Part shown: piece after piece, positions 21,023 to 35,690 of the stretch
How the letters are laid out: each line of letters opens with the position of its first letter
How positions within the stretch are numbered: position 1 is the first letter of the stretch
Assembly: GCF_019703855.1 (NCBI RefSeq)
Contig: NZ_AP024086.1
Location: forward strand, 1,136,501-1,200,500
Direction of reading: 5' to 3'
DNA length: 64,000 bases
Source: Desulfomarina profundi
Lineage (GTDB): Bacteria > Desulfobacterota > Desulfobulbia > Desulfobulbales > Desulfocapsaceae
Program-made: the position numbers and the translations under genes
Notes under the pieces: model-generated
What the model was told of the DNA's origin: nothing
Seen by the model: only the letters and a program-made list of their open reading frames with translations
The model's database searches: none

Positions 21023-22572
21023 ATGAAAATGAATGACCAGCTGGATCACCTCCATAAGTTGAGGGAAAAGGCAAAATTGGGAGGTGGCCAAGAGAGAATC
21101 GACAAGCTGCATGCAAAAGGCAGTATGACTGCCAGGGAAAGGATCGATTTACTGTTGGATAAAGGATCATTTGAAGAATTTGATATGTTCAAAGCCCACA
21201 GGTGCCGGGATTTCGGCATGGAGAACAAAGTGTTCCCAGGTGATGGTGTTGTTACCGGGCACGGTACTGTAAATGGTCGAATAGTTTATGTTTTTGCGCA
21301 GGATTTCACAGTTCTTGGTGGCTCCCTTTCTGAGACTTTTTCGGAAAAAATCTGCAAAATCATGGATCTGGCCATGAAAAACGGAGCACCGGTGATTGGC
21401 CTGAATGATTCCGGAGGAGCCAGAATCCAGGAGGGAATTGAGAGTCTGGCTGGATATTCAGAAATTTTCCAGAGAAATGTCATGGCCTCTGGTGTAGTTC
21501 CCCAGATTTCAGCCATTTTCGGGCCATGTGCCGGGGGAGCAGTGTATTCACCTGCACTCACTGATTTCATTATCATGGTGGAGAACAAGTCTTATATGTT
21601 CCTCACAGGTCCCAAGGTTGTCAAAGCCATAACCCATGAAGAAGTGACTGTTGAGGAGCTTGGTGGGGCTGCCATGCATTCCAGTCGGAGTGGTGTTGCT
21701 GATTATCCTGCACCTTCGGGTGAGGATGCCATAGCTTATATCCGTAAATTGCTCACCTTTCTCCCCCAGAATAACATGGATAATCCCCGGTTGTGGAGTG
21801 CAGCGATCCAGTCGAACGTGTTGCTCCCGGTCTGAATGCCATCATTCCTGAAAACCCGAATGCGGCATACGATATGAAGGAAGTGATTCTTCAGACTGTG
21901 GATAACCGTGAGTTTTTTGAGATAAAGGAAAATTTTGCTCCTAATCTCATTGTAGGTTTTGCTCACTATAACGGCATGAGTGTCGGTATTGTTGCTAATC
22001 AGCCTAAACATCTCTCCGGAGTTCTTGATATTGATTCCTCGGTCAAGGGTGGGAGATTTGTCAGATTCTGTGACTGTTTTAATATTCCGGTTGTCACTTT
22101 TGTGGATGTACCCGGATTTCTGCCGGGAACGGTGCAGGAATATGGTGGCGTGATACGAAATGGCGCAAAAATTCTTTATGCTTATGCCGAGGCCACTGTT
22201 CCCAAGGTTACGGTTATTACAAGAAAGGCGTATGGTGGTGCATATTGTGTCATGTCATCCAAGCATTTACGTGGCGATATCAATTACTCCTGGCCCAGTG
22301 GTGAAATCGCTGTTATGGGAGCTAAAGGCGCTGTTGGTGTGTTGTATGGTCGTGAAGCCGCAAGAGCTGAAGACCGTGCCGCATTTCTGGCAGAAAAGGA
22401 AAAAGAGTATCAGGAGACCGTCGCCAATCCCTATATTGCTGCTCGCCGTGGATATATTGATGATATCATAGAGCCTGCAGGAACGAGGAGACGGATTATA
22501 AAGGCGCTGGGGTTACTGCAGAATAAACGTGATGTCAATCCAATGAAAAAGCACGGTAATATTCCACTATAA
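21023..22572 (+). CDS. Methylmalonyl-CoA carboxyltransferase (12S-type), split by a one-base deletion
   Basis: Carboxyltransferase acting on propionyl-/methylmalonyl-CoA; with the biotin protein at 23434 it should form a methylmalonyl-CoA:pyruvate transcarboxylase. Seen: the opening [61 protein letters not shown], and in the second half [16 protein letters not shown] and [17 protein letters not shown]. The frame breaks after LPQNNMDNP at a run of four C (21785-21788); a fifth C restores 516 residues. AAGGAG site before ATG 21023. Paralogue at 33472. Confidence 0.92.
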
Positions 22573-22612: not shown

Positions 22613-22897
22613 ATGACTGTAAAAATAATAATTCAACGTACTGTGAATGACGACAATATCCTCGAACTGACCATGTTGCTGAAAAAACTCCGTTCCCTCA
22701 CTCTGGAACAGCCAGGATATATTTCGGGCGAGACCCTGAGCAGGATAGATAACAAGAATGAGTGTTTGGTTATCAGTACATGGCGTTCAGTCGAAGACTG
22801 GAATGAATGGGTTAACAATCCGAAAAGAACTGAAATCCAGGGCCAAATTGATACACTTCTCGGGAGGGAAACCGAGTATGCAATGTACAGTACTTGA
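22613..22897 (+). CDS. Antibiotic-biosynthesis-monooxygenase (ABM) domain protein
   Basis: 94 residues forming one ferredoxin-like dimeric alpha/beta barrel of the ABM type: an opening beta strand VKIIIQRTV, helix LTMLLKKLRSLTLEQPGYIS, ECLVISTWRSVEDWNEWVN. These domains can be heme- or quinone-linked oxidases, but many have no known reaction. It lies between the two transcarboxylase genes with a GGAGAT ribosome site and probably belongs to that unit. Its function there is unknown. Confidence 0.78.
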   Translation: MTVKIIIQRTVNDDNILELTMLLKKLRSLTLEQPGYISGETLSRIDNKNECLVISTWRSVEDWNEWVNNPKRTEIQGQIDTLLGRETEYAMYST

Positions 22898-23187
22898 TGG
22901 ATATCGTTTGTACAATGTTTGCTATGGCCCTGAATCCGTGAATGTCGATGGTGATGTAGCCTGGATCCTTGTGAATACTTTCAATTATCTTGAACTTTAT
23001 CCATGGGCCAGCTGACTGAGTGTATTTTGGCATGGAGATTAAAAATTAAGACAAAATCACGAAATCGTCATGATCCAGTTAATGGTAAAGAGTTGTCCTT
23101 TTTGATGGCGAAAATATGAAAAATAGGAGATACCCCGGAATCTGAAAGGGTGATTTACTGTTTTTTGCAAAAACAACGGGTGAAGGA

Positions 23188-23394
23188 ATGACAGGAAAGG
23201 AAAAAAAAAAGATGGCTGCGGCAATGGCAGCCGTGAGTCTTTACCTGGAAGAGGAAGCGGCAACAGCTGCCGAACAGGAGAAAAATCCTGAAAGAGCCGG
23301 TGGCTTTGGACAGAGTCCCTGGGGCCTGAGTGGGCGTCAGGAGATTATGACCATGCGCAGGCTGACACAGTTAAGAGTGTTTACTCGCATTTAA
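23188..23394 (+). CDS. Small conserved-looking protein next to the transcarboxylase; possible accessory subunit
   Basis: 68 residues: a basic start, an Ala/Glu-rich helix (residues 9-32, AAAMAAVSLYLEEEAATAAE), then a Trp-Gly-x-Ser-Gly-Arg-Gln motif followed by an Arg/Met-rich tail. The alanine-rich helix plus W-x-L-S-G-R-Q pattern resembles small epsilon-type proteins of carboxyltransferase complexes, but I cannot name a family with certainty. It is 39 bp before the biotin/5S protein gene. Inference: a structural subunit of the complex. Confidence 0.6.
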   Translation: MTGKEKKKMAAAMAAVSLYLEEEAATAAEQEKNPERAGGFGQSPWGLSGRQEIMTMRRLTQLRVFTRI

Positions 23395-23433: not shown

Positions 23434-25406
23434 ATGAGTGATCAAGTAAAAATGACGCCTTTGGAGTATTCAGCGGACAGACCCAAGGCAAAAAATCCGG
23501 TAAAGATAATGGATCTGTCCCTGCGTGATGGACATCAATCCCTGTTTGCAACCAGGGGGCGTACGGAAGACATGATCCCTGTTGCTGAAATGATGGACGA
23601 GGTGGGATTCTGGGCTATTGAAACCTGGGGAGGTGCGACTTTTGATACTATGCACAGGTTTCTTAATGAAGATCCCTGGGAAAGATTGCGTACACTGAAG
23701 CGGTATATTAAGAAAACACCGTTTTCCATGCTCCTGAGGGCTCAAAATCTTGTGGGCTACAGAAATTATGCCGATGATCTGGCCCGTGCTTTTGTGGAGA
23801 GGGCGGCAGAAAACGGTATGGACGTGTTCAGAACCTTTGATGCCCTGAATGACTATCGTAATTTTGAAACCGTGGTTTCCGAGATTAAACAATGCGGGAA
23901 ACATTTCCAGGGATGTATCTGTTACACTTTGACGGAACCTCGACTGGGTGGAGAGGTGTATAATCTTGATTACTATGTTGATCGGGCAAAAAATCTGGAG
24001 TCCATGGGTGCCGATTCGGTATGTATTAAGGATATGGCAGGTCTGCTGGCACCATATGATGCCTATCCGCTGATCAAGGCATTGAAAAAAGCTGTGAAGA
24101 TTCCTATCCATCTCCACAGTCATTTTACCTCCGGCATGTCGCCGATGACACACCTCAAGGCTATTGAGGCTGGAGTTGATATTATTGATACCTGTATGAC
24201 ACCCTATGCCTACAGGACTTCCCATGCCGCCCTTGAGCCCCTGGTAATGGCCCTGCTTGGCACCAACAGGGATACCGGTTTTGACATAAAAAAACTTGCT
24301 GCTATCAATGAGATTTTTGAAAAGGAAATTTTACCCAAATACAAGCACCTGCTTGATGATTCGAAAGTTTCCATTATTGATATTAACGTTCTGCTGCACC
24401 AGACTCCGGGGGTATGCTGTCCAACCTGGTTAATCAGTTGAGAGAAATGGATGCCCTTGATAAGATAGATGAGGTTTACAGGGAATTGCCGAAAGTAAGA
24501 AAAGATCTCGGTCAAATTCCGCTTGTGACACCTACAAGCCAGATCGTCGGGGTGCAGACGGTCAACAATGTTCTCCATGATACTCCCGATGAACGATATA
24601 AAATGATCACCGGACAGGTGAAGGATCTCTGCTATGGTCTTTATGGAAAGACTGCGGTGCCGATTAACCCGGAGCTGCAGAAAAAGGCTTTGAAGGGATA
24701 TCCGCGTGGTGAGGAGCCGATCACCTGCCGTCCGGCTGAAGTTCTTGAGCCCGAACTTGAAAAGGCGAAAGAAGAGATAGGTGATTTAGCTGTAGATTTG
24801 GATGATCTGATTCTCTATGCCCAGTTTCCTGTAACAGGTAAAAAATTCCTGGAATGGAAATATGGCAAGTCGGAAGCTCCTGACAGTGTCAAGCCGATTA
24901 CTCTTGAGGATGTAAAGAAAAGAGAAGAGTTGATTAAAAAGGCTCTTGCTGGTGAGTTGATTGAAAGAAAAGGTGACACTCCTGAGAAATCAGAAGCACT
25001 TCGGACATTTAATGTCTTTGTTGACAATGAATATTTTAATGTGGAGGTTGATCCAACCGGTGATTTTCAGGTTGTAGCAGCGCCTGCTTCTTCTGCTCCG
25101 GCGGCAGTGCCTGCCGCTCCCGCCCCTGCAGCAGCACCGGCCTCGGCACAGGCGGTAAAGGAGCCTGTGCCGGATACTACTGATGAAGCGGATGGAACAC
25201 TCCTTCTTGCCCCAATGCCAGGCATGATTGTAAAATATGTTGCCGGAGAGGGAGACACAGTCAAGAAAGGAGATACGGTTGTGATACTTGAAGCCATGAA
25301 AATGGAGAATGCGCTGGCCTCGCCTGCCGATGGAGTGGTAAAAGGGGTTAAATTCGGCACTGGTGACAGTGTTGCGAAAGGTGCCGTTCTTTGTGTTATC
25401 GGCTGA
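23434..25406 (+). CDS. Pyruvate/oxaloacetate carboxyltransferase (5S) fused to a biotinyl domain, split by a one-base deletion
   Basis: N-terminal half is the metal-dependent TIM barrel of transcarboxylase 5S, oxaloacetate decarboxylase alpha and pyruvate carboxylase: SLRDGHQSLFATR, FRTFDALND, CIKDMAGLLAPYDA, IHLHSHFTSGMSP. The middle carries the conserved PYC/OadA region, followed by an Ala/Pro linker and a biotinyl domain with EAMKMEN (Lys623). The frame breaks at HQTPGG, where five G (24408-24412) should be six; the repaired protein has 657 residues. It can take CO2 units from oxaloacetate (giving pyruvate) to biotin for the 12S partner. Confidence 0.92.
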
Positions 25407-25464: not shown

Positions 25465-25873
25465 TAGTTGAATCATGCGATGAGTCCATGTTTCTTATCA
25501 ATACAGGAGCGTCAGATCCAAGTTTTCGGAGGTTTAAATTGCCTGGCGGTAAATTGAAGTAACTTTTGTTTGCCGACAAAATAGAAAAGAAAACGGAACT
25601 GCCTGAACTGATGAGAAATGCTGGTTGGGATGCAGGTTGTTTGCTAGATGTCCACCCGGAAACCGTATTCTCTTTTCAACAGCTTTTCATGCGGATATTT
25701 AACTCAAAAATATAACATGCCTGTTGTATGAATTGGTGCATGATCAGTTGCAGTGATTATTATGGACAGAGGTACGGCTTCCGGATGGATGTTCCGTTTT
25801 TAACAGAGATTAACTCCAAAAGCCAGTCCATATTCAATTCTAAGATCTCGGAATGAGTCAAAAGAGGTATGTC
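25465..25873. other. Intergenic region before the gamma-CA gene
   Basis: About 400 bp with no gene, repeat copy or clear promoter that I can recognise. Confidence 0.5.
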
Positions 25874-26391
25874 ATGATATTGAAAGAGTTAAACGGTCAC
25901 CAGCCAGTAATTGGAGAAGATTGTTATTTTGCAGAAAATTCAGTGGTTGTGGGAGAGGTGAAAATAGGGGACCAGTGTTCCATATGGTACAACGCGGTGA
26001 TTCGAGGGATGTGCATTACATCAAAATTGGCAATAAGGTCAATATACAGGATGGGGCTGTCATACATGCAACATACAAAAAATTCCCCATCAATATTGGT
26101 AATAATGTATCCATTGGCCATAACGCAATTGTTCATGGTTGTACTGTGCACGATAATGTTCTGATAGGGATGGGTGCCATTGTTATGGATGATTGTGTGG
26201 TTGAGTCAAATACGATAATTGCTGCAGGAGCAGTGGTTACACAGGGAACCCGTGTGGAAACTGGTACTATTTACGCCGGAATCCCCGCCAGGAAGGTGAA
26301 AGATATCAGTCAGGAACTTATCTCCGGCGAGATTGAGAGAATAGCCAATAATTATATCAAATATTCAGGATGGTATAAGGAGAAGGATTAA
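25874..26391 (+). CDS. Gamma-carbonic-anhydrase-like hexapeptide-repeat protein, split by a one-base deletion
   Basis: A left-handed beta-helix trimer of the YrdA/CaiE/gamma-CA family. Seen: FAENSVVVGEVKIGDQCSIW, VIRGDVHYIKIGNKVNIQDG (metal His), GHNAIVHGCTVHDNVLIGMG with further His, and a C-terminal helix. The frame breaks at a GGG run (26006-26008) that should be GGGG; the repaired product is 172 residues from ATG 25874 (AGAGGT upstream). Placed next to biotin-dependent carboxylation genes, a CO2/bicarbonate role is plausible, though many members have no such activity. Confidence 0.85.
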
Positions 26392-30430: not shown

Positions 30431-31024
30431 CTACTCTTTGTCCGGATTGGCCATACCCTGCCATACCATCTCAAACATGACATTGGCCTGATCAGCCAGA
30501 CTCTCAGTTTTTCCGCGCAGGATCCACATGAAAAAACTTCGTTGAACAAAACCCATCAGGAAATCAAGCAGAACTCCAGCTCTCACATGGGGGTTGAGAA
30601 CACCTTCGTTCTGGCCCTGTCGTAAAACATCAATCATTAAAGACATCATCCTCGGCTGGGCAAATGTTTCGTCGGCCATCCATGTCTTCATGGGCAGAGT
30701 CATGAAAACAATTTTTCCCAGCCCTTCATGTCTTTCGTAATAGTCAAGCTGCAGCCAGAAAACCTTCCGCAGTTTTTCTTTTAGATTTTCTATGCCATGG
30801 AGATGATCAACAATCCTGTCTGTGAGAATGCCCATCCAGATGTCGACAAAGGCAAAGACCAGTCGTTCCTTGCTTCCATAATGCTTATAAATAGTCGTGA
30901 AGCTGACTCCAGCCCTGTTGGCGATGTCCCTGATGGATGCCTTGTGAAAATCAGAATTGGAAAAAATCTCCAGAACAGCCTGTTCAAGTCTTTTGTGGAT
31001 ATCGTCGTTTAATTTGTCCAACAT
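30431..31024 (-). CDS. TetR-family regulator 1 of the propionate genes
   Basis: 197 residues; N-terminal HTH with IRDIANRAGVSFTTIYKHYG (about residues 30-49), and a ligand domain with LRKVFWLQLDYYERHEGL. Closely similar over its full length to the TetR at 35076, with an identical recognition helix. Its start codon lies inside an operator-like sequence (31018-31030), so autorepression is likely. It is at the 5' end of the mce-mcm-meaB genes. Acyl-CoA or a pathway intermediate is a plausible ligand. Confidence 0.9.
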   Translation of the reverse strand: MLDKLNDDIHKRLEQAVLEIFSNSDFHKASIRDIANRAGVSFTTIYKHYGSKERLVFAFVDIWMGILTDRIVDHLHGIENLKEKLRKVFWLQLDYYERHEGLGKIVFMTLPMKTWMADETFAQPRMMSLMIDVLRQGQNEGVLNPHVRAGVLLDFLMGFVQRSFFMWILRGKTESLADQANVMFEMVWQGMANPDKE

Positions 31025-31347: not shown

Positions 31348-32510
31348 TTATCCTCCAAAAAGGGAAAGAAGAACTCCGGCGGACACTGCCGATCCAATGA
31401 CACCGGCAACATTCGGGCCCATGGCATGCATGAGAAGAAAGTTTCCGGGGTCCTCTTTCTGGCCAACAACCTGGGAAACACGGGCTGCCATGGGAACGGC
31501 AGAAACTCCAGCGGATCCGATAAGAGGGTTAATATTTACATTCATTACCCTGTTCATTAATTTGGCAAGAAGAACACCTGAAGCGGTACCGATACCGAAG
31601 GCGGTGACACCCAGGCAGAGGATGGCGAGGGTTTCAATTTTGAGAAACTGTTCCGCGGTTGCGGTGGCGCCGACCGTTACCCCGAGAAAGATGGTAATGA
31701 TGTTGATGAGAGCATTTTTTGCGGTGTCTTCAAGCCTGCCTACAACACCACATTCACGGAAGAGATTGCCCAGCATCAACATACCGATAAGAGTCGCTGC
31801 CGGTGGAACAATCAGCGAAACTATTATTGTAACAATGATGGGAAAGAGGATTTTTTCACGTTGACTGACTTCACGGAGTTGAGTCATCCTGATCACTCTT
31901 TCTTTTTCAGTGGTGAGCAGTTTCATTATCGGGGTTGGATTATCGGAACGAGAGCCATGTAGGAATAGGCGGCTATGGCAATTGGACCAAGGAGGTGGGG
32001 GGCAAGTTTGGAAGAAAGAAAAATGGCTGTCGGTCCGTCTGCCCCACCAATGATCCCAATTGAGGCCGCTTCCTGGGCTGTGAAGAGCCCGGAGGCTATG
32101 GCTCCGATAAAGGTTATGAAAATCCCGAACTGGGCAGCAGCTCCCAGGAGCAGTGATTTCGGATTGGCAATCAGCGGGCCGAAATCAGTCATGGCGCCAA
32201 CACCCATGAAGATCAACGGTGGAAAAATGCCCAGGTGATCTCCCTGAAACAGGTAGTAGAGCAGCCCTCCAGGTTCAAGTGTATGGATGGAGTGTTTCTG
32301 AATTTCCAGGACAGGTTCTGTCATCATCCCGGCAAACGGTAGGTTTGTGAGAAGAACACCGAAGGCGATGGGGACAAGAAGTAGAGGTTCAAATTTTTTT
32401 ACAATGGCGAGATAGAGCAGAAGGCAAGCAATACACATCATTGCAATCGAGCCTGGCGTCAGCCCTGAAAATCCTGTGCTTCTAAGAAAATTGAGTAATG
32501 AATCGAGCAT
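31348..32510 (-). CDS. Sodium-pumping decarboxylase beta subunit, split by a one-base deletion
   Basis: Membrane subunit of oxaloacetate/methylmalonyl-CoA decarboxylases that couples carboxybiotin decarboxylation to Na+ export. The first part ends [12 protein letters not shown] and the second begins with the expected [14 protein letters not shown], but the frame breaks at four C on the minus strand (plus G 31931-31934); a fifth restores 387 residues. Seen: [29 protein letters not shown] with the Na+-site Asp, and [15 protein letters not shown] at the C-terminus. Confidence 0.92.
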
Positions 32511-32525
32511 AATGAGGCTCTCCCT

Positions 32526-32933
32526 CTATGGTGTAAGGACGATGAGAATATCGCCGGCATTGACTGAAGCACCTTCACTTGCCTTGATCTCCTGTACTGT
32601 ACCGTCAGATGGCGCCTTGATGTCATTTTCCATTTTCATTGCTTCAAGAACCAGAAGAGTTTCTCCCTTCTTCACGGAACTACCCTGGCCAACAAGAATA
32701 CTGATTACAGTGCCAGGCATTGGGGCAGAAATATTTCCTCCCAAGCCGGTTTCTGTGGCGGCGGTTTTGGGAGCAGGTGAAGCGGCAGGTTTTGCGGGGT
32801 GCTGCATGGGAGTCGTCGGGGCAGTGGCAGGAGGTGAAGATGCAGGTCGTGTTGTGGGGGTTGATTCATCCTGCAGTTCTTCTATTCCAACTCTGTATTC
32901 AACATCGTTTACAACAACTCTGAATAATTTCAT
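32526..32933 (-). CDS. Biotin carboxyl carrier subunit of the sodium-pump decarboxylase
   Basis: 135 residues: an N-terminal cap (MKLFRVVVNDVEYRVG), a Pro/Ala/Thr linker (about 25-60) and a biotinyl domain with APMPGTV and EAMKMEN (biotinylated Lys100). Carries carboxyl groups between the alpha and beta subunits. 15 bp before the beta gene. Confidence 0.93.
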   Translation of the reverse strand: MKLFRVVVNDVEYRVGIEELQDESTPTTRPASSPPATAPTTPMQHPAKPAASPAPKTAATETGLGGNISAPMPGTVISILVGQGSSVKKGETLLVLEAMKMENDIKAPSDGTVQEIKASEGASVNAGDILIVLTP

Positions 32934-32950
32934 AATGGTCTCCGTGATTG

Positions 32951-33358
32951 TTAAAGTCTGCTGTTCATCTGCTCCAGAATTCCGGCCCTGTTCCAGGCAG
33001 GTTGGGGAGGGTCGATTCGTGTAATATTTTTAATAACAATATTACTGGGGGAAGTGTTTAACTGTGTTGCCAGAACAGTTGAAATAACGGCAATAAGTTC
33101 GGTGTTATCAGGTTTTGAAGGAGAAGTTGGAGCAGCAGTAGAGGCTGCTGTCTCTACGGAACTGCTCGCCGGTTTTTTCCTGTTGGTCATCAGTTTTTCC
33201 ATGAAAGCAATAACAAACTGGAGGATGATGAGTGCTGCAAAAGTGATTCCCATTCCGAGGACAGTGGCAAACAGTCCGGCAAAAAGTTTGTCTGTCAGAG
33301 AGAGGGCATGGATGGTATCCGGGTTTGCAAAATCGGCCAGAAGTTCAATGGTGGTCAT
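32951..33358 (-). CDS. Sodium-pump decarboxylase gamma/delta-type subunit (OadG/MmdD)
   Basis: 135 residues with one membrane helix (about 29-52, FAGLFATVLGMGITFAALII), a charged linker and a C-terminal region with VISTVLATQLNTS. OadG/MmdD subunits hold the complex together at the membrane. Between the alpha and biotin-carrier genes. Confidence 0.85.
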   Translation of the reverse strand: MTTIELLADFANPDTIHALSLTDKLFAGLFATVLGMGITFAALIILQFVIAFMEKLMTNRKKPASSSVETAASTAAPTSPSKPDNTELIAVISTVLATQLNTSPSNIVIKNITRIDPPQPAWNRAGILEQMNSRL

Positions 33359-33471
33359 GGTTATCTCCAGAAAATGGATCGAAAAAACGAAAAATCATTG
33401 TTCCAGCACCTGAAAAGGGTTTTGATATTCCAAAAATGTAAATAGGCTGATCCCTTTGATGCTGTCATGCT

Positions 33472-35018
33472 TTACAGAGGAATATTACCATGTTTTTTGG
33501 CCGGACGTTTTTCCCGTTTTCCCTGCAGCATGATAAAAGCATCGATAACCCGCTGTCGGGTTGTGTCCGGCTCAATGACATCATCAACAAAACCCCGTTC
33601 CGCTGCCTTATACGGGGTTGCAAATTCTGCAGCATACTCTTCCAGTATTTTTGTTTTGGTGGCTGCCTTGTCATCTGATTTTGAGATCTCTCTTTTGAAG
33701 ATGATATTGACGGCTCCTTCAGATCCCATTACCGCCACTTCCGCAGTAGGCCAGGCGAATACCATATCGGCGCCGAGAGATTTTGAGCACATGGCAACAT
33801 AGGCACCGCCATAGGCCTTTCGCGTGATAAGGGTAACTTTTGGGACGGTTGATTCACTGTATGCGTAAAGAATTTTTGCACCGTGTCTGATAATCCCACC
33901 GTATTCCTGGGTTGTTCCCGGTAGAAAACCGGGGACATCTACTATGGTGAGCAGGGGAATATTGAATGCGTCGCATGTTCTGATGAACCGGGCTGCCTTG
34001 TCACCTGCGTTCATGTCAAGGCAGCCAGCCATGACATTTGGCTGGTTGGCGATGATGCCGACTGAATTGCCGTTGATCCTCGCAAAACCTGTAATGATAT
34101 TTGTCGCGAAATAGGGTTGACTTTGGAGAAAATCACCATTGTCCACTATCGGCAGTATGACATCCAGTATATCGTATGGTTTGTTCGGGTTGTCTGGAAT
34201 GAGCGTGTTCAAAGAAGGAATTCTTCGGTTAATGTCATCATTAACGGGGTAGACAGGAGCTTTTTCCATGCTGTTTGATGGCAGAAAACTGAGTAGCCTC
34301 CTGATGGACTCCAGGCATTCAAGTTCGGTGGGGGCAATAAAATGAACATTTCCGCTGACACTGTTGTGGGTCATGGCTCCACCGAGTTCTTCTGCAGATA
34401 CTTCTTCTCCTGTTACGGCCTTGATCACCTGGGGCCCGGTGATAAACATCTGGGATGTTTTATCCACCATTATGATAAAATCCGTCAGAGCCGGTGAATA
34501 GACGGCTCCACCGGCGCAAGGGCCCATAATAGCAGATATCTGGGGGACCACACCTGAGTAAATGGAGTTCCTGAAAAAGATGTCACCATATCCGGAAAGG
34601 GCATCTACTGCTTCCTGTATTCTCGCACCACCTGAATCATTCAGGCCGACCATGGGGGCACCGATCTTGGCAGCGCTGTCCATTGCCTTGACAATCTTTC
34701 TGGCGTGCATTTCCCCAAGGGCTCCCCGGTGATGGTGAAGTCCTGGGAATAGGCGTAGACAATTCTGCCGTCAATCTGTCCGTAACCGGTAACTACGGAT
34801 TCACCTTCCGCATCAAGTTTGTCCATACCGAAATTAGTGCATCGGCATTTGATAAAGGCATCAGTTTCAATAAACGTACCGGGATCAAAGAAATGATTAA
34901 GACGTTCCCGCGCTGTCATTTTACCTTTGGCATGCTGTTTTTCGATTCTTTTTTCACCTCCACCCAGGGCGATTTTCTCTTTTTTTTGCAGCAGCAGTTC
35001 TCTCTTGTCCAAAGGCAT
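33472..35018 (-). CDS. mmdA: Methylmalonyl-CoA decarboxylase alpha/propionyl-CoA carboxyltransferase, split by a one-base deletion
   Basis: Second carboxyltransferase of the window, acting with the gamma, biotin and beta subunits next to it. Start at ATG 35018 has AAGGAGG eight bases upstream; a longer start at 35054 lacks this. Seen: [77 protein letters not shown]. The frame breaks in the segment FTITGGALGEMHARK at four G on the minus strand (plus C 34724-34727); one more G restores 515 residues. Related to the gene at 21023. Confidence 0.92.
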
Positions 35019-35075
35019 TTTTGAAGCCTCCTTGGTTAAAGTTATCAGTGCCATGATGTACGGCAGTAGTCCTGT

Positions 35076-35690
35076 CTATGTGTCCGGATCCGTGTAGGTT
35101 ATGATTGCCGGATTCACCATACCCTGCCAGACCATTTCAAAAAGAATATTGGCCTCGTCGGTAAGTCGTCCTTTTTTTCCCCTTACTATCCACATAAAAA
35201 AACTTCGCTGTATAAACCCGAGCATAAAATCGAGAAGTGTCCCGGCTCTCACCTGAGGATTGATAATGGCCGCCGCCTGGCCCGCTTTGAATACATCAAT
35301 GATCAGTGTGACCCTTTTTTTCTGGTCGAATGTTTCATCGGCCATCCATGTTTTCATGGGAAGGCGAATGAAGAGAATACAACCAAGCTCCTCGTGTCGT
35401 TCGTAGTACTCCAGGTGCAGCCAGAAAACCTTGCGCAGTTTTTCCTTCAGGTCCTGAATGCCGTTTAAATGATCGGCAATGCGACCGGTCAGTTTTTCCA
35501 TCCAGATGTTAACGAAGGTGAAAAGCAGTCGTTCCTTGCTCCCGTAATGCTTGTAAATAGTCGTAAAGCTGACTCCCGCTTTTTCTGCAACATCACGGAT
35601 GCTTGCCTTATGAAAATCGCAGGTCGAAAAGACCTCCATTACAGCCTTTTCAAGTCGGTTTTTTACTTTCGGATTTATGTCGTCTAACAT
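35076..35690 (-). CDS. TetR-family regulator 2 of the propionate genes
   Basis: 204 residues, a close paralogue of the TetR at 30431 (same AGVSFTTIYKHYGSKERL recognition helix, same LRKVFW and LLDF-GF-QRSFFMWI blocks). Start codon inside an operator-like sequence at 35684-35696. It leads the alpha-gamma-biotin-beta decarboxylase genes and probably represses them and itself. Confidence 0.9.
   Translation of the reverse strand: MLDDINPKVKNRLEKAVMEVFSTCDFHKASIRDVAEKAGVSFTTIYKHYGSKERLLFTFVNIWMEKLTGRIADHLNGIQDLKEKLRKVFWLHLEYYERHEELGCILFIRLPMKTWMADETFDQKKRVTLIIDVFKAGQAAAIINPQVRAGTLLDFMLGFIQRSFFMWIVRGKKGRLTDEANILFEMVWQGMVNPAIITYTDPDT

Follow-up and report, generated by a model that had tools for sequence, protein, structure and literature searches.

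A 68-residue protein encoded between transcarboxylase genes of Desulfomarina profundi, proposed as a soluble linker subunit related to OadG and MmdD C-termini

The closest described systems

The transcarboxylase of Propionibacterium combines 12S and 5S carboxyltransferases, as the locus described here does, and its biotin carrier, 1.3S, is a separate subunit. I know of no subunit of that enzyme resembling EPS, which is the label used here for a protein of 68 amino acids encoded between the 12S and 5S genes of D. profundi. Small subunits are found in other biotin enzymes, and the MmdE protein of Veillonella resembles the C-terminus of MmdD. According to the portions of two articles consulted here, the C-terminal part of the gamma subunit OadG binds the alpha subunit and the association domain (PMC7274780, PMC2881705), and removal of the C-terminal tail of OadG severely reduced the co-purification of the alpha subunit (PMC7274780). 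The same portion of PMC7274780, which refers to earlier work, places the amphipathic helix of OadG on the alpha association domain at a 1:2 ratio with alpha tetramers. A portion of PMC11206085 names mmcI, which belongs to the mmc genes of Desulfofundulus salinus and D. kuznetsovii, as the gene of an 'epsilon subunit' and places it in a propionate cluster together with mmcL (5S) and mmcK (malate dehydrogenase). Since mmcI has already been named, an epsilon-type subunit in a transcarboxylase gene cluster is not new as an idea.

How does EPS compare with these proteins? A comparable short helix, rich in Ala, is present in the cytosolic part of OadG, which is encoded beside an alpha chain with carboxyltransferase, PYC_OADA, and biotin domains, although the likeness is weak on the helix alone. 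However, OadG contains a membrane helix and lacks a Trp tail where it is encoded beside OadA with no 12S gene, whereas EPS is soluble and has a tail of the W-GR type. MmdD, the delta subunit of methylmalonyl-CoA decarboxylase, shares with EPS a C-terminal helix, a W-containing tail, and a place beside a 12S-type gene (mmdA), but it is membrane-anchored and paired with the decarboxylase MmdB, whereas EPS is paired with a 5S-biotin chain. MmdE and the mmcI product are, like EPS, small proteins of 12S-type gene sets, as judged from their descriptions. The biotin carrier gene mmcJ is listed apart from the 5S gene in the consulted portion of PMC11206085, whereas the two are fused at the EPS loci. 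What is new here is the combination of EPS with a fused 5S-biotin chain, a broad EPS family, and a rule linking the tail to 12S-type partners. A search of open-licence main texts found no description of these three, nor of an EPS-like protein in Desulfobulbales transcarboxylase genes.

The EPS locus, the EPS family, and the ABM protein

The window is a stretch of 64,000 nucleotides of the D. profundi genome. On its plus strand, a 12S-type carboxyltransferase gene of the MmdA family (21023..22572; PF01039 and TIGR01117 mmdA match across both of its halves) is followed by the gene of a 94-residue ABM-domain protein (22613..22897; PF03992, E 9.1e-9, 35.8 bits with the cut-off at 23.1). The EPS gene (23188..23394) comes next and is followed by a single gene (23434..25406) for a 5S-type carboxyltransferase fused to a PYC_OADA domain, an association segment, and a biotin domain (PF00682, PF02436, PF00364). 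An earlier note on this DNA, made from the sequence alone, had placed the ABM and EPS genes in one orientation between 12S- and 5S-type genes, each with its own ribosome site. Both are open reading frames at that place and on that strand, and by eye AGGAG lies before the ABM start and GGGTGA lies 5-10 bases before the EPS ATG; the GGGTGA-type site looks similar in several relatives. The neighbours are of the types described there, with two refinements: the '5S' gene encodes a 5S-biotin-carrier fusion (HMGL-like, PYC_OADA, Biotin_lipoyl), and in this assembly both carboxyltransferase genes, 12S and 5S, are interrupted by a frameshift. With 12S, 5S, and biotin carrier parts encoded together, the locus has the gene content expected of a transcarboxylase, an enzyme that moves a carboxyl group between methylmalonyl-CoA and pyruvate. 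Upstream of the 12S gene are acyl-CoA-synthetase-like and succinyl-CoA-synthetase-like genes, named by reading the translations. Downstream are a gamma-carbonic-anhydrase-like gene, found by a family-model match, and MeaB-like and methylmalonyl-CoA-mutase-like genes, again named by reading. The gene set around EPS is a propionate (methylmalonyl-CoA) gene set.

EPS itself has no match at E<=1 in either Pfam or NCBIfam. The 28 family members searched against Pfam and the EPS proteins tested against NCBIfam gave chance matches only, as did a PDB search with EPS. PF04277 (OAD_gamma/OadG) is absent from the nine families matched by any of the 28 members, and NF047904 (MmdE) is not among the families matched by these 28 and by 10 EPS proteins. 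The MmdE model gave no match above its cut-off in 148 genomes, and none of its matches listed falls at an EPS place; at E<=1 it also matches in 7 of 14 control genomes, all below the cut-off. EPS is therefore a family matched by no Pfam or NCBIfam model, and it most likely lies outside the curated OadG and MmdE families while being of the OadG/MmdD/MmdE kind.

A single-sequence search of genome contigs with EPS gave zero relatives. With a 28-row EPS alignment, 102 were found and 80 were kept, which are called the named loci below. Contigs with EPS in related genomes have titles such as Desulfobulbaceae and Desulfocapsaceae, and the named loci take in Rhodocyclaceae, Propionivibrio, and 'Betaproteobacteria' records besides Desulfobacterota. 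With the own genome counted, EPS matches were found in 29 of 58 related genomes and 78 of 395 Desulfobacterota genomes, and ABM matches in 28 of the 58. The family set was made from 151 matched frames, of which 118 were distinct; one row of odd length was dropped. In the remaining 117 rows (median length 68), a Lys-rich start leads into an amphipathic helix rich in Ala (KKxAAALAAVxxYLxxEE), which a variable linker connects to a C-terminal tail with the consensus W-x-x-S-G-R-Q-x-x-M-x-x-R-x-L-x-Q. W and M of the tail are present in all 117 rows, both Arg residues in 113 each, Gly in 112, and the last Gln in 111. There is no membrane segment, the Lys/Ala helix lying right at the start. In the window, the helix is KKMAAAMAAVSLYLEEEA (23206..23259) and the tail is SPWGLSGRQEIMTMRRLTQLRV (23314..23379). 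In all 36 pairwise comparisons among nine EPS genes and all 21 among seven ABM genes, nonsynonymous divergence was lower than synonymous divergence (pN < pS), and the median dN/dS of EPS was 0.17 (27 unsaturated pairs). The ABM and EPS genes are both real, with conservation far beyond chance.

The breaks in the 12S and 5S genes are a different matter. The frames overlap around 21793-21835 in the 12S gene, with the frameshift near 21793, and around 24414-24441 in the 5S gene, with the frameshift near 24414. Each of the two genes is a single open frame in 73 of the 80 named loci; of the other seven, five run into a contig end and two have no more of 5S than its biotin part. Therefore, sequencing errors are likely behind the split genes of the window. 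Since each break falls at a run of C or G, homopolymer errors of long-read sequencing seem a better explanation in this single-contig assembly than pseudogenes. Five genes in about 15 kb seem to be split by frameshifts (at 21793, 24414, 25853-26391, 31926, and 34641).

Is the neighbourhood of EPS conserved? A 12S gene upstream, an ABM gene upstream, and a 5S gene downstream were found at 29, 24, and 28 of the 29 loci in related genomes, at 80, 36, and 79 of the 80 named loci, and at 23, 1, and 30 of the 30 loci from the phylum. These 139 loci represent 111 distinct EPS genes; 104 have the upstream 12S gene and 110 the downstream 5S gene, and the sole exception for 5S (L028, the same as L136) lies at a contig end. 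The neighbourhood survey that the earlier note had proposed as a check thus left its idea standing for EPS. Among the 150 5S matches listed in Desulfobacterota, 61 of the 74 long, biotin-fused 5S frames have EPS within 3.5 kb, compared with 2 of the 76 short ones (391 and 575 residues), a correlation that, like that of the tail with 12S described below, is drawn from related genomes and not from independent events. For the same reason, the Fisher value for this pairing is no true probability. 'Long' here means a frame of 600 residues or more, and the frameshifted 5S gene of the window was counted as long by hand. Among the matches listed, 13 of the 74 long 5S genes have no nearby EPS, and 17 of 80 EPS places have no nearby 5S.

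A 12S gene was searched for in 14 genomes and matched in 13. Ten of them have EPS loci lacking an adjacent 12S gene; a 12S-like gene is present elsewhere in nine (44-58% identity over the half compared), and the tenth (G105, 82% complete) is without one. The other four have no EPS beside a long 5S gene. At all three of the scanned EPS loci without an adjacent 12S gene, a gene of the lactate/malate dehydrogenase family comes after 5S. Some loci have a variant arrangement. At L091:3595-4538 and L100:5998-6883, EPS is followed by the biotin-carrier part only, without a 5S carboxyltransferase match and beside a 12S gene, an arrangement that is possibly decarboxylase-like or split. At L195:6075-12101, there is a run of EPS, 5S, MmdA, OadG/MmdD, MmdC, and MmdB genes, in which the soluble EPS and the anchored delta subunit both have a W-GR tail.

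The ABM protein has a wider distribution. In 30 loci read from 72 ABM places, 18 are 12S-ABM sets with EPS, 10 lie beside OadA-like genes, and 2 are on short contigs. The D. profundi genome carries ABM in both operon types, the copy on the oxaloacetate decarboxylase (OAD) side being a 67% paralogue of the window ABM. That copy belongs to an ABM-OadG-OadA(biotin)-OadB operon (L191:6312-10743; G000:C1:3646311-3650742), whose OadB has an extra N-terminal stretch with weak matches to biotin/lipoyl-type models. A 48% relative precedes an MmdA-MmdD-MmdC-MmdB operon in another genome (L278, G018), and relatives of 45-48% are found near EPS-5S in L201 and L204. One reading is that ABM is an additional subunit, or acts enzymatically on a substrate or product such as the enol and keto forms of oxaloacetate, and is shared by the transcarboxylase and the decarboxylase pumps without being an oxygen-using monooxygenase. 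I regard this as doubtful. It fits with the presence of one ABM group in two operon types (18 against 10 of the 30 loci), both of them in the own genome, with the copy before the MmdA operon, and with the two main sets having no context-specific columns at a 75% threshold. However, ABM is missing from 44 of the 80 named EPS loci, and weaker relatives (29-41%) have no query gene nearby in 17 of 18 regions read. A role specifically on oxaloacetate was also tried and is weakened by the ABM gene beside the MmdA operon, because oxaloacetate is not a substrate of the adjoining enzyme. The OAD-operon paralogue is only weakly similar to IsdI (E 0.21), and in strict anaerobes ABM is unlikely to act as an oxygenase. 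The term ABM does not occur among the literature matches listed from open-licence main texts. The loci do not demonstrate that ABM belongs to the transcarboxylase complex: ABM is absent from 44 of the named loci and is also encoded in other operons. Because of this absence, ABM is not essential for the complex; it is a conserved accessory and is treated apart from the linker proposal for EPS.

EPS and the C-termini of OadG and MmdD

PF04277 (OAD_gamma) has two matches in the D. profundi genome. One is an MmdD-like membrane subunit in the window (32951..33358, minus strand; PF04277 53.4 bits, and TIGR01195 47.1 bits, above the cut-off), in an MmdA-MmdD-MmdC-MmdB operon of a decarboxylase type. 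The other (G000:C1:3646892) is the OadG of the ABM-OadG-OadA-OadB operon. The operon in the window (31348-35054, minus strand) is that of a membrane-type methylmalonyl-CoA decarboxylase, and its MmdA (an overlap at 34641-34710) and MmdB (around 31926) genes also seem to be split by frameshifts. It is flanked by two similar TetR-like regulator genes (30431-31024 and 35076-35690, both on the minus strand), one on each side, which by eye look like a duplicated pair.

The C-terminus of the window MmdD has a helix followed by PAWNRAGILEQMNSR, and it resembles EPS. When the EPS profile was compared with the C-terminal 140 residues of MmdD/OadG proteins by hhalign, a match of 52 columns was obtained (E 2.2e-5, probability 76%, score 32.0). 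No column-shuffled control reached this score in 60 (maximum 16.3) or 100 (maximum 15.2) trials, and the reversed profile and the ABM profile scored 15.8 and 9.6, respectively. Subset profiles gave lower values (E 7.5e-4, 0.0029, and 9.5e-5; probability 26, 11, and 59%), and all of them exceeded their own shuffles. The match sits at the C-terminal end in all four comparisons. With tail-less OadG proteins, the match to EPS shrank to 11 columns of the helix (E 0.014, probability 3%), which means that the case for kinship comes mostly from the tail. The OadG helix was weakly matched by 3 of 10 EPS proteins (best E 0.0021), and the EPS HMM matched one of three MmdD-like proteins from another group (E 0.0014). 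EPS is thus related to the C-termini of gamma and delta subunits.

The distribution of the tail was compared with the type of partner. All 27 MmdD-like (gamma/delta) rows beside a 12S-type gene, 26 of them distinct, have the Trp tail; these remained from 28 rows after removal of a chance match (L231). A Trp residue in the last 40 residues was found in none of 12 OadG rows (11 distinct) beside OadA without a 12S match in the stretch read. The latter came from 15 loci with OadG beside ABM, three of which (L043, L047, and L192) gave no OadG row. Two resolved cases among 21 PF04277 places agree further: L180 has a Trp tail near a 12S-type gene, and L171 has neither. The consulted portion of PMC2881705 describes a Vibrio gamma subunit without Trp. 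There is one exception, L295 (the same as L176, in G060), where an OadG-like protein in a 57-residue frame consists of the membrane part only, without a helix or tail, and is encoded between MmdB and SucD, next to MmdA. A pattern search near this minimal protein found no separate tail-like ORF. At L295:4962-7887, MmdA and MmdB lie beside it with no biotin-carrier match in the stretch read. Other short OadG-like proteins among the PF04277 places also stop after the membrane part. The Trp tail is tied to 12S-type partners, with this one exception, and EPS itself follows the MmdD type in having a W-x-x-x-G-R-type C-terminal tail beside a 12S-type partner. The pattern of tail and 12S, taken with the published binding of the OadG tail to alpha, suggests that the helix serves the biotin chain and, by comparison, that the tail serves 12S.

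EPS as a proposed linker subunit

EPS is proposed here to be a soluble linker subunit of a propionyl-CoA:oxaloacetate transcarboxylase, with its helix on the 5S-biotin chain and its tail on 12S; the probability of this reading is roughly 65%, slightly lower than it would be without the exception at L295. Both contacts and the bridging function are inferred here from comparison with OadG and MmdD. The N-terminal amphipathic helix would pack against the association segment in the 5S-biotin chain, in the way proposed for the OadG tail helix on OadA. The candidate partner segment in the window is RTFNVFVDNEYFNVEV (about 25002-25049), which lies before a Pro/Ala linker. The W-x-x-S-G-R-Q-x-x-M-x-x-R tail would hold the 12S carboxyltransferase. 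Within one particle, the biotin arm could then shuttle back and forth between 5S, which has the oxaloacetate site, and 12S, which has the methylmalonyl-CoA site. EPS would be an OadG/MmdD subunit minus the membrane helix, and so, in this proposal, the enzyme would stay cytosolic and transfer the carboxyl group rather than release it at a sodium pump. The earlier note had suggested that the 68-residue protein could be a new assembly subunit. A role in assembly is supported by the match to the alpha-binding C-terminus of OadG/MmdD, while the protein appears not to be new in kind, since linker subunits are already known as a class and EPS is a soluble relative of them.

Alternatively, EPS may bind only the 5S-biotin chain, stabilising or tetramerising it, with the Trp tail folded back on 5S or covering biotin instead of reaching 12S. 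EPS does precede the 5S-biotin fusion even without an adjacent 12S gene (7 of the 30 phylum loci), and the isolated OadG tail is reported, in the consulted portion of PMC7274780, to promote alpha tetramers. Structure predictions point the same way for the helix. In an EPS-5S model (a read-through of a relative, L068; 73 rows; mean pLDDT 68.8, pTM 0.62), the EPS helix has block-mean pLDDT values of 73-75 and the tail 28-41. In a fused 12S-EPS model (a read-through of L108; 73 rows; pTM 0.78), the helix has at most 60 and the tail about 40. The helix, but not the tail, is thus more confident beside 5S, in a comparison of different orthologues and of different alignment depths (28 and 11 EPS-bearing rows). 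A docked tail is seen in neither model, and tail docking gains no support from folding, a result of limited weight because 12S-type enzymes act as hexamers. In the EPS-5S model, two short strands (pLDDT about 78) are formed at the association segment of the relative. VIA-align matched the folds of PC, OadA, and 5S over residues 104-589 only, with Z scores of 30.5-31.5 for Propionibacterium 5S structures over residues 110-589. The matched ranges start at residue 104 or later, so that the EPS helix was not shown to occupy a position like that of the tetramerisation domain. The longest Foldseek alignment of this model was 647 columns with an rmsd of 15. What argues against binding to 5S only is the Trp tail, which is found in 0 of 12 gamma subunits serving OadA without 12S and in 27 of 27 beside a 12S-type gene. 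The tail is also found in MmdA-MmdD-MmdC-MmdB operons without a 5S or OadA match in the stretch read. Binding to the 5S-biotin chain only is therefore unlikely. It is very improbable that EPS, as a regulator or another kind of small protein, does no more than share a transcript with the transcarboxylase genes: it is small, has no family model, and shows no catalytic motif, but it is related in sequence to OadG/MmdD C-termini and pairs with biotin-fused 5S genes.

The linker proposal may be extended to a modular scheme, which is possible but is put forward here tentatively. The W-GR tail would be a portable docking module for 12S and the helix a portable docking module for the biotin chain, and the two would have been recombined with a membrane anchor. 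Helix and anchor would give the oxaloacetate pump; helix, tail, and anchor the methylmalonyl-CoA pump; and helix and tail the soluble transcarboxylase, with ABM as a common accessory of all three.

If EPS is such a linker, it offers a testable explanation of why a biotin arm and two carboxyltransferases stay together in propionate-metabolising sulfate reducers. The distribution of the tail suggests which short motif decides the coupling of a biotin enzyme to a 12S-type partner, and the ABM protein is tied to anaerobic biotin enzymes.
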